From: an uncultured Geobacter sp.
Lineage (GTDB): Bacteria > Desulfobacterota > Desulfuromonadia > Geobacterales > DSM-12255
DNA length: 39,600 nt
NCBI GenBank assembly: GCA_937860145.1
Contig: CALMBF010000095.1
Coordinates: forward strand, 1 to 39,600
Reading direction: 5' to 3'
The notes below the pieces were generated by a model, which was not told the DNA's origin, searched no databases, and saw nothing but the letters and a program-made list of their open reading frames with translations. Every line of letters starts with the position of its first letter. The first letter of the stretch is position 1. Positions 8,183-19,445 of the stretch are shown here, piece after piece. The translations under genes and the position numbers were made by a program.

Positions 8183-10069
8183 TTAGTACCAGTTCGGTGT
8201 CGCCGCATAGTGGCACATCAGGTTCGAACAGGTGATGTTGACGCCGGTTGTGCCGCTGACAACGGGGTTCGAGCCACCGAAGAGCAGGCTCATGCTGTTG
8301 GCGGTACCGCCTCCCATGGTGTTCGGATAGCTGCCGCCTGCTCCGAAGGTGATCTGCTTGGAGCCGTCGTTGTGCTGCGACAGTGTCGTGGTATGACACG
8401 TACCGCACACGGCAACGTTCTCGGCTGATGAACCGAAGGTCTGGCCGGTTACCGCAAGTGTGCCATATCCCACTCTGGTCTTGATGAAGGAGATGTGCTT
8501 GTAGTGGGCCAGATCGGTCCCACTGGTGTTCTGCCAGGCGTTGGTCCCGGTGATGTCGTACTTGTGGCAGCCGTTGCAATCGGTGGTGACGTTGATGCTG
8601 CCGTTCATGTGCAGGGACTTGTTGATGATCTTACCCGTCGCATCGACGACCATGCTGTGGCAGCCGACGCAGGAAGTGGTTGCCGCATAGCCGCTGTGGC
8701 TGGTTGCCGTGGTGCCGGTGGTCGGCGGGTTGCCGTGACAGGTGCTGCAGTCCGCACCGGGGGTGCCGGTCATAAGTGATGCCTGGTTCCACTGGGGACT
8801 TCTTGCGGTACCGCTGGTGTCACCCTTGGGCATTTTACCGCCGTGGCAGTAGGTCGTGGTACAGGTTGCCGCGGCAATATCAGTACCATCCGTTTTTGCC
8901 GTGGTGGTGCTGTTCTTGATGGCCGTGGATGCCTGGGCAAAGGTCAGGGTCTGGCTGTTGTAGCGCGGCACCGCCATGTGGGTCCCTTCGAAGGGGGTTG
9001 TCGGCACGCTGTGGCACTCGTTGCATTTGAGCTTCGGCATGTAGACGGAGGAGAGGTGGACGAAGTGGGCACCTACCCGCTTGTCGGTATTTACAGCAAC
9101 CTGATCGGTGCTGGTACCGGTCCCGCCCCAGCCGGGAGCCGCATTGTACTTGTCCGCACGGAGGGACGTCTGGCCGTCGACACCGTGGCAGTGGACGCAG
9201 GTGTGGTTGTTGTTCGTGGTGGCTGCCGACCAGGCACTACGCGACTTGCCGCCGTGACAGGAAACATTGTTGCAGGTCTTGGTGTTGCCGGCGGAGCCGA
9301 CTTCCGTGCTCTTGTACGAGGTGTAGGTGCCATAGGCAACCCCTGTAAAGGTGACGTCCCGTACGCCGTTGACGTGGCGTGTCGCAGCGGTATAGCTTTT
9401 CAGGGTGGCGGCATCGGTAGCGGTCTTGGAGTGACAGATCTGGCAGTTGATATTGGCTGCCGGGTACTTCAGGTGCTGGGAGTGGGTCGTTGAGAGGGTA
9501 AAGTTGCCGATGCTGCGCGCCGGTGCGCCAGTGGCGGAGAGACGGCCGGCATGGCAGCCACGGCACCCTTCAGAGCCGCCCCAGCGGGAAGAGCTGTACT
9601 GGACCATCCCCATGCCGGTAGCACGACCGGTACTGTGGCAGTAGATGTTGCCGCAGTTACCGAAGGCCGGGCTGTTGGTGTTGGCGATCTTTTTCCCGGC
9701 CGAGTAGCGGTTGCCGGGAAGACTGGCGCCGGTTATGTTCTTGAACCCGCTCTGGTGGGCGTTGGTGTAGCCGGCGCTCGGGTGACATTTGGTACAGGCA
9801 TACTGGTATTCACGCTTCGCCGACGAGGTCGAATACCCCGAGTGACGGGCATGGGTACCGAGGAACATGCCACTGGGCGTGTTCCGGGCCGTGCCATCCT
9901 GGACTTTGTTGTTGTTGAAGTGACATCCGGAAAGACCGTTGCTGCACGAGATGGTGGCAGCACCGACGTCACTCGGGCGAAGTAATCCGCCGAGTAATAA
10001 TGATGATAGTAACATGGTGCAGAATGCTGCCAAGCCGACCGCTTGACGTTTTGATTGCATGTGAGACAT
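8183..10069 (-). CDS. Secreted multihaem c-type cytochrome (CxxxxCH/CxxCH family)
   Basis: A 628-aa exported electron-transfer protein. I count nine classical CxxCH sites (CTKCH, CRGCH, CQICH, CVHCH, CNECH, CSTCH, CVGCH, CNGCH, CGTCH), four CxxxxCH sites (CGNIYCH, CNNVSCH, CTTTYCH, CSNLMCH) and one CSNGLSGCH (Cx6CH) at the start of the mature protein: up to 14 haem sites. Alternating CxxxxCH and CxxCH marks a cytochrome family known mainly from Geobacter. A signal peptide (hydrophobic AAFCTMLLSSLLLGGLL, cleavage near DVGAA/TISC) precedes it. The Ser/Thr/Gly-rich spacers suggest an extended, perhaps extracellular, protein. The start at 10069 follows GGAGGAACATC; a longer frame to 10147 lacks a site and would precede the signal peptide. 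A sigma-54 promoter lies upstream. It is likely involved in extracellular metal or electrode reduction (inference from family). Confidence 0.93.
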   Translation of the reverse strand: MSHMQSKRQAVGLAAFCTMLLSSLLLGGLLRPSDVGAATISCSNGLSGCHFNNNKVQDGTARNTPSGMFLGTHARHSGYSTSSAKREYQYACTKCHPSAGYTNAHQSGFKNITGASLPGNRYSAGKKIANTNSPAFGNCGNIYCHSTGRATGMGMVQYSSSRWGGSEGCRGCHAGRLSATGAPARSIGNFTLSTTHSQHLKYPAANINCQICHSKTATDAATLKSYTAATRHVNGVRDVTFTGVAYGTYTSYKSTEVGSAGNTKTCNNVSCHGGKSRSAWSAATTNNNHTCVHCHGVDGQTSLRADKYNAAPGWGGTGTSTDQVAVNTDKRVGAHFVHLSSVYMPKLKCNECHSVPTTPFEGTHMAVPRYNSQTLTFAQASTAIKNSTTTAKTDGTDIAAATCTTTYCHGGKMPKGDTSGTARSPQWNQASLMTGTPGADCSTCHGNPPTTGTTATSHSGYAATTSCVGCHSMVVDATGKIINKSLHMNGSINVTTDCNGCHKYDITGTNAWQNTSGTDLAHYKHISFIKTRVGYGTLAVTGQTFGSSAENVAVCGTCHTTTLSQHNDGSKQITFGAGGSYPNTMGGGTANSMSLLFGGSNPVVSGTTGVNITCSNLMCHYAATPNWY

Positions 10070-10156
10070 GATGTTCCTCCCCGCTGTCTTGAATTTATGA
10101 ACTAATTGGTACTGACTGTTACCCGGTCTTAAAATAATTAAAATCATGTCGATGTG

Positions 10157-10172: not shown

Positions 10173-10418
10173 TGTGTGTGTGGTTTTAATTATAGAGCTA
10201 TTGTTGGCGCTTTCGCTGTGTTGAAGTAGGGAATGCTTGATTAGTATAAATTTTAATTAGAGTAATTGTTGTTAAATGGCTGAATCATCTGTCTTTTAAT
10301 GTGCTATCAGACGTACCGGTGAGTGATCAACCAAGTTCCTCTGAAAGCTGCGGCGTTTGAGCGCTCTTGAGAAGGCCTGCCCCTTCTGTTACAGGGTAGT
10401 TTGGCTGAGACCGCTCAA
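10173..10418. other. AT-rich divergent regulatory region
   Basis: This non-coding stretch lies between the sigma-54 promoter (minus strand) and the riboswitch promoter (plus strand). It is the expected place for an RpoN activator and for IHF bending, but no clear dyad or tandem repeat stands out. No reading frame is convincing. Confidence 0.45.
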
Positions 10419-10462
10419 ATATAAAGTCGATTCAAGTTCGTCGATTTATCTTGACTTTATAT
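10419..10462. repeat. 10-bp inverted repeat overlapping the riboswitch promoter
   Basis: ATATAAAGTC (10419-10428) and its exact complement GACTTTATAT (10453-10462) are 24 bp apart. The right arm overlaps the -35 box TTGACT, so this may be an operator. The spacer contains two copies of TCGATT. Confidence 0.5.
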
Positions 10463-10499: not shown

Positions 10500-10584
10500 A
10501 ACTCTCCGATACTAGCAAACCGGAAGCGATTCCGGGACGCAAAGCCACGGGCCCCACGCGGGTAGCCGGGTTGCCGAAGAGGGT
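10500..10584 (+). ncRNA. GEMM-I cyclic-dinucleotide riboswitch aptamer (A20, cGAMP-type)
   Basis: The conserved GEMM-I blocks occur in order: GCAAACC (10515-10521), a P2 hairpin CCGGAA-GCGA-TTCCGG with a GNRA tetraloop (10520-10535), GGACGCAAAGCC (10535-10546), and GGTAGCCGGGTTGCC (10561-10575). P1 can form between ACTCTC (10501-10506) and GAGGGT (10579-10584). The base just before GCAAACC, position 20 in the Vc2 numbering as I remember it, is A (10514) rather than the G of c-di-GMP aptamers. An A here is the reported mark of GEMM-Ib aptamers in Geobacter, which prefer 3',3'-cGAMP. Family identity is secure; ligand preference is inference. Confidence 0.9.
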
Positions 10585-10614
10585 CATATGCACCGTTGCT
10601 ACGCGTGTGTGTTT

Positions 10615-10649
10615 AGCCTGTCTTCTATTGGTAAAGGAGACAGGCTTTT
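10615..10649 (+). terminator. Riboswitch expression-platform terminator
   Basis: Stem AGCCTGTCTTC (10615-10625) pairs with GGAGACAGGCT (10636-10646) with one G-U, followed by T4. It lies 30 nt after the aptamer. The stretch GAAGA (10576-10580) at the base of the aptamer can pair with TCTTC (10621-10625) in the terminator's left arm, offering a possible antiterminator. The switching direction is not proven. Confidence 0.8.
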
Positions 10650-10880
10650 CTATTTGGGCTGCTCTGAATCCATGGCGGCGAGAGCTCGTTTCGGTCGGCG
10701 GAATGAGTTGAAAGTAAATAATGAATATAGAGATTGAAATTCGAGCTTCAGATTAGAGTAGCAAGAATACTGAAGTCGATTATGGTCACGGAAGGCACGA
10801 TGTCGTTACTCACTGTTATAGTTATAGAGTATAATAATAGTCAATACGTCAAGAGCAGTATCTAATTATTTGGTTTGATT

Positions 10881-11735
10881 ATGCTAAACATTGAGAAGCA
10901 CATCAAAGCATATCTGCACTACCTTGAACAGAAAGGCCAGGTATTTAATATCATATTGGGCCTCGTGTTCACTGTCCTTTTTGGCGTGTTGGATATTATG
11001 GCTCCAATCCAGTATTCTTTTATATTGTTGTACATATTCCCTGTCGCGCTGACAACATGGTTTGGACGGCGATCAGCCGGAATTGCAGTATCTATACTCT
11101 GTACCGCGTTTTGGACTTACACCAACCCACAAGTCGATATGCCATCATCAATATGGAATGTCCTTTCAACATTGATTATATTCATTGCGGTCTCAGTTAT
11201 GCTCAGAAAGATCCGCAGCATGTGGGAGAATGATATCGTCTTGTCGCGTACCGACCAACTGACTGGTGCCATGAACAGGCGGGCATTTGATGAAATAGTT
11301 GAATATGAGATGTTGAGACTTCAGCGGCAGAACAGCCCCTTCTCGCTCGCGTACCTTGATCTTGATAATTTCAAGAAAGTCAACGATTGCTTTGGTCATA
11401 AAAAGGGTGACGAACTTCTGAAAGCTGTGGTGGAATGTATTTCAAGCAATCTGCGAAGGACTGACGTGGTTGCACGTATTGGTGGAGATGAATTTACCAT
11501 TTTCTTTCCGGCGACAGACCAGAACTCAGTAAAACGTGTCATGGTGAAATTGAAGGAGCAGTTGCGATTGTTGTCTGAGAAGAACAACTGGCCAACAACG
11601 TACAGTATAGGTGTCATAACCTGTACAGATACTCAATGCGACCTTGAAAGATTGATATCACTTGCTGACAAATTGATGTATGAGGTCAAGCGCTCCGGTA
11701 AGAATGATGTCCATTACTTAACATACACAATCTAA
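10881..11735 (+). CDS. Membrane GGDEF protein (diguanylate cyclase)
   Basis: A 284-aa inner-membrane protein with about four N-terminal helices (23-39, 45-60, 64-80, 93-108) followed by a GGDEF domain (about 120-280). The catalytic loop is intact (GGDEF, 201-205), an inhibitory I-site RRTD (192-195) lies exactly five residues before it, and the guanine-binding Asn168 and Asp177 (KVND...GHKKGD) are present. Asp at the latter position is canonical for c-di-GMP synthesis; the Geobacter cGAMP-making Hypr enzymes have Ser there. The ATG at 10881 has no obvious Shine-Dalgarno. The gene lies 230 bp beyond the riboswitch terminator, so it is the likely regulated gene, though a TATAAT at 10830-10835 might give a private promoter. 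Codon use is AT-richer than its neighbours. Confidence 0.9.
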   Translation: MLNIEKHIKAYLHYLEQKGQVFNIILGLVFTVLFGVLDIMAPIQYSFILLYIFPVALTTWFGRRSAGIAVSILCTAFWTYTNPQVDMPSSIWNVLSTLIIFIAVSVMLRKIRSMWENDIVLSRTDQLTGAMNRRAFDEIVEYEMLRLQRQNSPFSLAYLDLDNFKKVNDCFGHKKGDELLKAVVECISSNLRRTDVVARIGGDEFTIFFPATDQNSVKRVMVKLKEQLRLLSEKNNWPTTYSIGVITCTDTQCDLERLISLADKLMYEVKRSGKNDVHYLTYTI

Positions 11736-11772: not shown

Positions 11773-12048
11773 ATGACTAAAGCAGACCTTGTCGAGCGCA
11801 TTTATTCCGCATCCGGTATGAACATGAAGGAATCAAAAGCAGTACTTGAGTCCGTATTTTCTCTTCTCAAGGATACTCTCGAATCTGGTGAGCAGATCAA
11901 GATCGCGGGGTTTGGCAACTTTGAGGTCAGGCACAAGAGTAACCGCAAGGGCAGGAATCCTCTCACAGGCGAGGCTATTACCATTGAGGCAAGACGTATT
12001 CTGACCTTTAAACCAAGTAAAATTTTGAAAGAGGATATAAACAGATAG
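11773..12048 (+). CDS. ihfA: Integration host factor, alpha-type subunit
   Basis: A 91-aa HU/IHF-family DNA-bending protein. The central GEQIKIAGFGNFEVR and the DNA-arm GRNPLTGEAITIEARR match IHF-alpha better than HU, including the arm-tip proline. IHF binds as an alpha/beta heterodimer and sharply bends DNA, often between an enhancer and a sigma-54 promoter. AAGGAG (11760-11765) precedes ATG 11773; upstream in-frame codons from 11746 are not needed. The gene lies 37 bp after the GGDEF gene on the same strand and may be co-transcribed with it. No partner beta gene is in the window. Confidence 0.85.
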   Translation: MTKADLVERIYSASGMNMKESKAVLESVFSLLKDTLESGEQIKIAGFGNFEVRHKSNRKGRNPLTGEAITIEARRILTFKPSKILKEDINR

Positions 12049-17895: not shown

Positions 17896-18179
17896 AAGAT
17901 TCACCCCCTTTGCTAAAGATTTATAGAACTTTGTGTATTCAGCATAATCAAATTTTTTCTAGCACGTGTTTGTGCAAATGTCCAGAAGAAACCATTTCCC
18001 TTCGCACGACGACCGTCGAACGGCCAACAAATTACTTGAATTGACGGCATTACTCCGGTATTATAAAAAGCAGTTTTATTATGGCTGAATTTGTTGTTCC
18101 GCATATTTATTCATATCGAAAATAAACGTAATACTATAGGGTTAGGGTTACTATTCCGATTAATTAAAGGGGTTTCCGC

Positions 18180-19445
18180 ATGCAGATACTTGCTCTTAAT
18201 TGTGGTAGTTCTTCCGTCAAATATCAACTGTTTGACTGGAACAAGATGGAGGTGGTAGCCAAGGGGATGGTTGAGAGGGTCATCATTGGCGACTCCTTCA
18301 TTCTGCATGAGGTTCCGGGCCGGGAGGCTTACCGCTGCGAGTCCGACTGTCCCGATCACCAGGTGGCGATAGACCTGATCATCAGGACATTGACCGATCC
18401 CGAGCACGGCGTGCTCGAGGAGATCAGCGAGATCTCCGCAGTCGGTCACCGGGTAGTCCACGGCGGCGAAAAGTTCACCCGCTCGGTCATGATTGACGAG
18501 GCGGTGCTCGATGCCGTCAAGGAGGTGCAGCACCTTGCTCCTCTGCACAACCCGCCGAACATCTCGGGTATCGAAGCCGCCAAGGCGGTGCTTCCCGATG
18601 TCCCCCATGTCGCCATCTTCGACACCGCGTTCCACCAGACGATGCCGGAGCACGCATATCTGTACCCGGTTCCCTACGAGTGGTACGAGTTCCACGGTGT
18701 GCGCCGTTACGGTTTCCACGGGACATCCCATCTCTACGTCTCCAAGCGGGCGGCTGCGATCCTCGGCAAGAAGGCCTGTGAAACCAATATCATCACCATG
18801 CATATCGGTAACGGCGTTTCCCATTGTGCCATCAAGGGAGGTGTTTCCGTCGATACCACCATGGGGCTTACGCCGCTCGAAGGGGCGATGATGGGGACCC
18901 GCTGCGGGGATATCGACCCCGCCATTCCGGCGTTCATGATGCAGAAGGAGAACCTGTCCGCCAAGGAGATCGACGGGATTCTCAACAAGAAGAGCGGGGT
19001 TCTCGGGATTACCGGACGTTTCACCGACAGGCGTGACGTGATAGAACATGCCAATAACGGAGACAAGAGATGCAACCTTGCCCTTGAAATAGAAGCGTAC
19101 CGGCTGAAGAAGTATATCGGTGCCTACATGGCGATCATCGGCAGGCTCGATGCGGTTGTTTTCACCGCAGGGGTCGGGGAGATGGGGTGGCCGATCCGTG
19201 AAAAGGCAATCGAGGGGCTGGAGCATCTCGGGATCTGCCTGGACAAGGAGCGCAACAAGGGAGCAATGACCAGGAAGCGGGAAACCCTCATTACCACGGA
19301 CGATTCTCCGGTCAAGGTGTATGTGATCCCGACCGACGAAGAGCTCGTCTTTACCGAGGATGTGGCGGCAATCCTGTCCGGCACCTATACCGACCACATG
19401 AACTTCGAATATACCTTCTCCCGTCCGGACTTTGTCAGGAAGTAG
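18180..19445 (+). CDS. ackA: Acetate kinase
   Basis: AckA interconverts acetate + ATP and acetyl phosphate, the first step of acetate activation (or last of acetate production). The 421-aa sequence has the N-terminal MQILALNCGSSSVKY, the GHRVVHGG block, YGFHGTSH and the C-terminal phosphate-binding VFTAGVGE region. A slightly long C-terminal tail (about 15 aa) follows. AAAGGGG precedes the ATG. The partner pta is convergent, not in an operon with it. A TTGACG box is present at 18041-18046 but the spacing to TATAAA is only 15 bp, so the promoter is uncertain. Confidence 0.96.
   Translation: MQILALNCGSSSVKYQLFDWNKMEVVAKGMVERVIIGDSFILHEVPGREAYRCESDCPDHQVAIDLIIRTLTDPEHGVLEEISEISAVGHRVVHGGEKFTRSVMIDEAVLDAVKEVQHLAPLHNPPNISGIEAAKAVLPDVPHVAIFDTAFHQTMPEHAYLYPVPYEWYEFHGVRRYGFHGTSHLYVSKRAAAILGKKACETNIITMHIGNGVSHCAIKGGVSVDTTMGLTPLEGAMMGTRCGDIDPAIPAFMMQKENLSAKEIDGILNKKSGVLGITGRFTDRRDVIEHANNGDKRCNLALEIEAYRLKKYIGAYMAIIGRLDAVVFTAGVGEMGWPIREKAIEGLEHLGICLDKERNKGAMTRKRETLITTDDSPVKVYVIPTDEELVFTEDVAAILSGTYTDHMNFEYTFSRPDFVRK

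Follow-up and report, generated by a model that had tools for sequence, protein, structure and literature searches.

The closest described relatives of the switch reported here are the GEMM-Ib (3',3'-cGAMP) riboswitches of Geobacter (pgcA, pilM; PDB 4YAZ), which have in common with it the GEMM-I fold, an A at position 20 and an intrinsic terminator. Our switch lies in a 39,600-nt stretch of DNA (hereafter the window), contig C95 of the 3.96 Mb draft genome of an uncultured Geobacter sp. The natural cGAMP aptamer of solved structure is of the A-C type, A14 being followed by C15 paired with G40 (PMC6274999), and pilM is described as an ON switch that recruits bases of the aptamer into its terminator (PMC9262584), whereas the window aptamer has G21-C22 and a separate terminator. 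The cGAMP switches described in PMC6456294 and PMC9262584 turn genes on and, according to the former, deletion of gacA in G. sulfurreducens lowered the transcription of all genes behind GEMM-Ib. Its authors also conclude that c-di-GMP inhibits GacA, an effect relieved by I-site mutation, and report that an A20G swap turned the tested Geobacter aptamer from cGAMP to c-di-GMP (PMC6456294).

GacA is a Hypr GGDEF enzyme and shares its GGDEF domain with the protein encoded behind our switch; in the latter, the purine-reading site holds Asp instead of Ser. The window's pairing of A20 with a G21-C22 scaffold has a counterpart in PDB 4YB1, which we take to be Vc2 with that scaffold; it is a laboratory mutant, whereas the A20-GC aptamers of this survey are natural. 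This G20A mutant of a class I GEMM aptamer is reported to bind cGAMP (PMC6274999, PMC7288161). The c-di-GMP-I switch Cd1 of Clostridioides difficile, of the OFF type, is like the window in letting aptamer and terminator form side by side in competition with an antiterminator, but as described it carries G (G11 in the numbering of PMC9262584) in place of A20, and it belongs to other bacteria and other genes. Among the literature titles and abstract openings listed, none names an OFF-type or A20-GC member, which proves little.

A first-pass annotation of the window had placed a GEMM-I switch on the plus strand, with A at position 20, an intrinsic terminator behind it and a GGDEF gene next; all four elements were confirmed here (Table 1). 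The RF01051 (GEMM-I, c-di-GMP-I) alignment from cmscan over the whole window (E 6.4e-10) is above the gathering cut-off and full length with zero broken pairs, and the P1 span exceeds it on both sides. A10514 adjoins the first G-C pair on its 5' side and aligns with model position 11, which we take to be Vc2 position 20, so that the window has the A of GEMM-Ib (cGAMP) at this place. The layout traits of the characterised Geobacter members, namely C21 and an ON platform in which terminator and aptamer overlap, are absent: G21 pairs with C46 and the terminator begins 36 nt downstream of the aptamer. C21 and the ON platform may define the GEMM-Ib subclass or could be traits of the characterised members only; because of the G21-C46 pair and the separate terminator we use the label A20-GC rather than typical GEMM-Ib. 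The annotation's reading of A20 as the mark of Geobacter cGAMP aptamers thus stands for the base itself, but the aptamer is atypical beside the family's common C21-U22, ON-type switches, and its G21-C22 and separate terminator point to OFF. Upstream of the switch, at 10355-10421, an imperfect inverted repeat (TTTGAGCG...CGCTCAAA) is visible by eye; the Rfam scan of the window gave no family above cut-off at these positions.

Table 1. Features of the switch locus, in window coordinates.
Feature	Position	Strand	Basis
P1 5' strand (ACUCUC), partner 10579-10584	10501-10506	+	growing-transcript folds
GEMM-I aptamer, RF01051	10504-10578	+	62.0 bits, gathering 35
Position 20 = A, the base behind the cGAMP versus c-di-GMP choice in one tested Geobacter aptamer	10514	+	model position 11; A20G swap as reported in PMC6456294
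G21-C46 and C22-G45 pairs, P2 hairpin 10520-10535 (GCGA loop)	10515-10540	+	RF01051 alignment; P2 covariation, 25 A20-GC aptamers
P3 hairpin	10543-10572	+	RF01051 alignment, folds; pair counts, 25 A20-GC aptamers
GAAGAGGGU: predicted antiterminator strand, includes P1 3' strand 10579-10584	10576-10584	+	pairs with 10616-10625 at transcript ends 10627-10642, probability 0.56-0.94
Intrinsic terminator: stem of 12 pairs with an 8-nt loop, followed by a T-rich tail to ~10654	10615-10646	+	terminator scan, folds
Leader, 226 nt, without further terminator-like site	10655-10880	+	terminator scan
TTGACT, possible -35 of the switch's own promoter; weak, without good -10	10451-10456	+	by-eye comparison of three copies
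Candidate separate GGDEF promoter, TACTCA-17-TATAAT, 45 nt before ATG	10807-10835	+	promoter scan
GGDEF protein, 284 aa, GHKKGD, RRTD (I-site), GGDEF	10881-11735	+	Pfam GGDEF, 142.6 bits; motif reading
HU/IHF-type DNA-binding protein, 37 nt past GGDEF gene, possibly cotranscribed	11773-12048	+	Pfam PF00216, 109.8 bits

Covariation in 25 A20-GC aptamers supports both P2 and P3, as expected of GEMM-I: 93.3% of cells are paired and the score of 0.427, against 0.234 for shuffles, was reached by none of 500, while slid structures scored 0.03-0.13 in the same test. Less extreme measures gave pairs with two-sided changes that were reached by 12 of 500 shuffles and further pair types reached by 55 of 500.

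The source genome holds 20 GEMM-I aptamers, 15 with A20 and five with G20. By positions 20-22 they comprise five A-GC (window included), ten A-CU and five G-CU/G-CC; the terminator stem starts inside the aptamer in all 15 A-CU and G-CU/G-CC members, and 17-36 nt past it in all five A-GC members. We extended the comparison to a family set of 145, made up of these 20 and 125 listed GEMM-I matches from 12 same-family relatives, and including two matches under the gathering cut-off, one of them A-GC. The types are ACU (95), GCC (18), GGU (13), AGC (9), GCU (7) and GGC (3), so that A20 sits on two scaffolds, the common A-CU and the rarer A-GC, the latter with the window site included. Terminators overlap the aptamer in 90 of 95 ACU members (none found in five), 17 of 18 GCC (none in one), all seven GCU and two of three GGC (downstream in the other), and the 13 GGU members have one overlapping, eight near the aptamer end, one downstream and three without; the terminator is wholly downstream in 9/9 AGC members. 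This layout difference is well supported, and we regard the combination of A20-GC with a downstream terminator as a new element.

An exact A20-GC pattern found 35 matches in 141 genomes (own included), 23 of them with aptamer spacing: five in the source genome and 18 in 14 others. Of the latter, 17 are among the best 150 RF01051 matches, the exception (L224) being without its 3' half by eye. Two orthologous GEMM-I switches in genomes G078 and G079, of one genus, differ as A20 (L221) and G20 (L272) while their flanks share 86.6% identity across 2.46 kb, a natural exchange of the specificity base; by eye, ribosomal protein genes follow the L221 switch.

Three copies of the aptamer-terminator cassette exist in the source genome, with unrelated flanks. 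Over query positions 1-149, the window cassette shares 87 and 92% identity with two A-GC copies located on contig C32. They lie at 18143-18290 and 18768-18915 (G000; loci L021, L002, L003), 625 nt apart, and enclose a 106-aa ORF that appears membrane-like by eye; the second reaches the contig end. In the first (C32a) the cassette ends ~40 nt before the ATG of this ORF, with a purine-rich stretch ahead. The segment 10576-10584 and the terminator 5' arm are identical in the three copies while the linkers differ, though these closest copies show little divergence and are not independent. Searching 57 relatives with the cassette DNA gave matches at E<=1e-6 in 11, all confined to the aptamer part of the query. 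By eye, TTGACT, TTTACT and TTGACG precede the aptamer by ~44-50 nt in the three copies, and in a sigma-70 scan of the sequence ahead of each aptamer the best score was reached by 486, 411 and 292 of 500 shuffles.

Between 10140 and 12200 we counted one terminator-like site against a mean of 1.5 in shuffles; with the count at shuffle level, the stem energy of -19.6 kcal/mol is the better argument for the terminator. From its tail to the GGDEF start is a gap of 226 nt, and the ORF listing has no plus-strand ORF of 100 aa or more between terminator and gene. The promoter candidate within this gap was equalled by 94 of 500 shuffles. Among GGDEF relatives that have no switch, promoter-like sequence ends 23-61 nt ahead of the start codon; it beats 95% of shuffles in two of eight GGDEF genes tested, the window gene being outside those two.

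Folding of the growing transcript suggests how the switch may operate. P1-P2-P3 is seen when the transcript ends at 10588, a linker-P3 fold competes at 3' ends ~10612-10620, the antiterminator (with G10620 bulged in the terminator arm) is favoured over the range given in Table 1, and the terminator is favoured from 3' end 10645 with a probability of 0.76-0.98. Forcing aptamer and P1 at 3' ends 10627-10642 costs 4.5-10.3 kcal/mol, which a nanomolar ligand could, in our judgement, pay. In the full-length RNA the terminator wins even without ligand, so the OFF model is a kinetic one. Since P1 and the antiterminator share 10579-10584, a ligand-locked P1 should favour termination.

This sharing of strands with P1 and terminator is predicted by folding; it is supported across the A20-GC set and weakly at the window site taken alone. 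At the 24 A20-GC loci that have a terminator, pairing of the P1 3' strand averages -8.3 kcal/mol with the locus's own terminator arm and -5.3 with that arm reversed, the own arm giving the stronger pairing at 18 loci (Wilcoxon p 0.0004, uncorrected for relatedness); this set leaves out L320, a family A20-GC member missed by the expression, and L241 has no terminator by our finder. Arms exchanged between loci are hardly worse than own arms (-7.9 against -8.3), because many loci share AGAGGG and CCCUUC, and an earlier duplex test in which the P1 strand was poorly placed gave no gain for own over exchanged arms (A20 -10.1/-9.9, G20 -8.1/-8.4). P1-terminator pairing is weak in L005, L200, L213, L221, L222, L242 and L243. 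A clean P1-P2-P3 fold was obtained for 13 of the 21 A20-GC loci tried, and imposing it clearly reduced the terminator arm's pairing with upstream RNA at ten of these; the window site is one of the three exceptions, terminator-arm pairing moving only from 0.70 to 0.67. When the arm was shuffled, 36 of 200 shuffles paired as much as the window sequence, and p<=0.05 was obtained at 5 of 20 other A20 loci and 2 of 13 G20 loci, the P1 strand being misplaced in a few.

The window GGDEF protein (P0001) has N-terminal hydrophobic stretches by eye and carries the features of a diguanylate cyclase, namely GG[DE]EF, the guanine-site Asp and an RxxD I-site. Given this canonical Asp it should make c-di-GMP, and we rejected its identity as a Hypr GGDEF (cGAMP synthase), which would have Ser at that position. 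The genome has 23 GGDEF matches, of which a motif scan read 17 (two being pieces of one protein) and left six without a reading; two proteins, L171 and L172, have the cGAMP-type Ser. With both Asp-type and Ser-type proteins encoded, the organism can plausibly make both cGAMP and c-di-GMP. On the other side of the switch, a multihaem cytochrome gene at 8183-10147 (-) is divergent from it, and shared intergenic control is possible.

Named relatives of the GGDEF protein include Pelotalea chapellei (NCBI: Geobacterales), the basis on which the window is assigned to this order. The six closest (50-64% identity) have no same-strand GEMM-I in front, and across 18 relative loci scanned (L031, L032 and L112-L127, with L031/L032 the same places as L113/L116) a single GEMM-I passed the cut-off; it belongs to L114 and has the opposite orientation to the GGDEF gene. 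A search for conserved neighbours at ten loci (1.5-4 kb flanks) returned only 24-26% response-regulator matches in L032 and L112, and one for upstream DNA shared between the window and the GGDEF relatives only a reverse-strand match of 21 nt (L112) and chance matches of 9-12 nt. As far as searched, the pairing of switch and GGDEF gene therefore appears peculiar to the source genome.

The placement had been called unusual by the first-pass annotation, which is right for the family: with a home-made profile, GGDEF was detected in the downstream DNA retrieved for at least two of the 145 GEMM-I, the window and G010:C108, and similar EAL and HD profiles found none there; as this DNA spans a few hundred bases to ~2.5 kb per locus, these counts are lower bounds. 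For GEMM-I generally the claim does not carry over, c-di-GMP enzymes behind such switches being already known: many associated genes serve c-di-GMP production, degradation or signalling, according to a review (PMC7266159). At G010:C108 (L186) a G20 aptamer precedes a canonical GGDEF protein, preceded by a short ORF that looks exported by eye.

What lies behind other A20-GC switches was surveyed with Pfam in 20 downstream proteins from 17 loci, two of them in the own genome; genes behind L221, L222 and L224 were left out. HD_5, which covers HD-GYP phosphodiesterases, was found in L223 and in the response regulators of L232 and L234. Other signalling genes encode a chemoreceptor (L241), CheB-CheR (L227), FIST (L231) and, as second gene, a PAS/B12-binding sensor (L240); the L225 switch is, like that of the window, ahead of an HU gene, followed there by a response regulator-PAS protein. 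The remainder include an outer-membrane efflux protein (L005), ShlB (L242), Lcl_C (L212), RCC1 repeats (L213) and a kumamolisin pro-domain (L229), with sub-threshold cytochrome matches only, 0.8 kb away, at L230 and no Pfam match behind L008, L226 and L243. In genomes other than the own, the DNA behind 44 GC-scaffold pattern matches (19 A20, including two non-whole aptamers, L224 and probably L233, and 25 G20) was searched with profiles, and HD-type proteins turned up behind three, all A20, but GGDEF or EAL behind none.

Our best explanation, to which we assign a probability of roughly 0.45, is that this A20-subtype GEMM-I on a G21-C46/C22-G45 scaffold would be a transcriptional OFF switch, probably for cGAMP, repressing the gene of a canonical diguanylate cyclase; the explanations weighed here overlap in part and their confidences need not sum to 1. 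In the ligand-free state, 10576-10584 would pair with the terminator 5' arm and RNA polymerase would read on. P1 would be locked by a cyclic dinucleotide (3',3'-cGAMP probably, c-di-GMP being the next candidate), freeing the terminator arm so that transcription would stop before the membrane diguanylate cyclase gene; the HU/IHF gene behind it would probably be silenced too. The feedback or cross-talk role proposed by the annotation is a natural guess for an A20 GEMM-I with terminator ahead of a GGDEF gene, but we can only infer that the gene is transcribed through the switch and coupled to it, because 226 nt and a candidate promoter intervene and the nearest GGDEF relatives have no same-strand GEMM-I. 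Those same features, with the TATAAT close to the ATG, the upstream promoter-like sequence of switch-less relatives, the lack of upstream DNA shared between them and the window and the recurrence of the cassette in unrelated flanks, would suit a working switch uncoupled from a GGDEF gene with its own promoter, yielding a short regulated RNA or persisting as a duplication leftover. We consider this somewhat unlikely, as shuffles readily match the promoter candidate, the gap holds neither a further terminator-like site nor a sizeable plus-strand ORF, and the C32a cassette stands where a working leader would be expected, just before an ATG.

The ligand itself is best read as cGAMP or either dinucleotide, in each case with a diguanylate cyclase as the probable target of repression. 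That c-di-GMP is the relevant one, giving plain negative feedback, we hold to be unlikely, although the core, G21-C22 among it, matches the c-di-GMP-I consensus except at A20, c-di-GMP is the expected product of the downstream enzyme, and the L221/L272 orthologues raise the possibility that A20 is nearly neutral on the GC scaffold; against this, all five pattern-found GC-scaffold switches of the source genome have A20 and none G20, and A20G moved another Geobacter aptamer from cGAMP to c-di-GMP (PMC6456294). Switching ON, as is usual for Geobacter cGAMP riboswitches, would follow the known rule for A20, as exemplified by the gacA deletion (PMC6456294), and the linker-P3 alternative fold could in principle produce it. 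It is nevertheless very unlikely here, since the characterised ON terminator uses aptamer bases (pilM, as described in PMC9262584), while that of the window begins well past the aptamer, as do those of the other family A20-GC members. A decayed or non-functional copy would fit the nearest GGDEF relatives, which have no GEMM-I at the equivalent place, but is highly improbable given 62 bits without a broken pair, an intact terminator, and antiterminator and terminator strands unchanged between copies despite differing linkers.

We thus return to the OFF switch as the preferred reading, with the locus a genuine member of a known riboswitch class, though of a less common form, that probably acts in the opposite direction. 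A broader proposal, distinctly unlikely at present, is that A20-GC GEMM-I form a cGAMP-repressed regulon in Geobacterales that includes many signalling genes, with cGAMP shutting off a c-di-GMP synthase in this genome and the two messengers mutually repressing. The interest of the locus is in the variant and its testable prediction rather than in the presence of GEMM-I: it offers a short, directly testable RNA for asking how ligand choice and switch direction depend on a single base and a single scaffold. If the reading is true, cGAMP repression of a c-di-GMP synthase would mirror the reported inhibition of GacA by c-di-GMP, and a natural A20 OFF switch ahead of such a synthase would link the two dinucleotide pathways transcriptionally.
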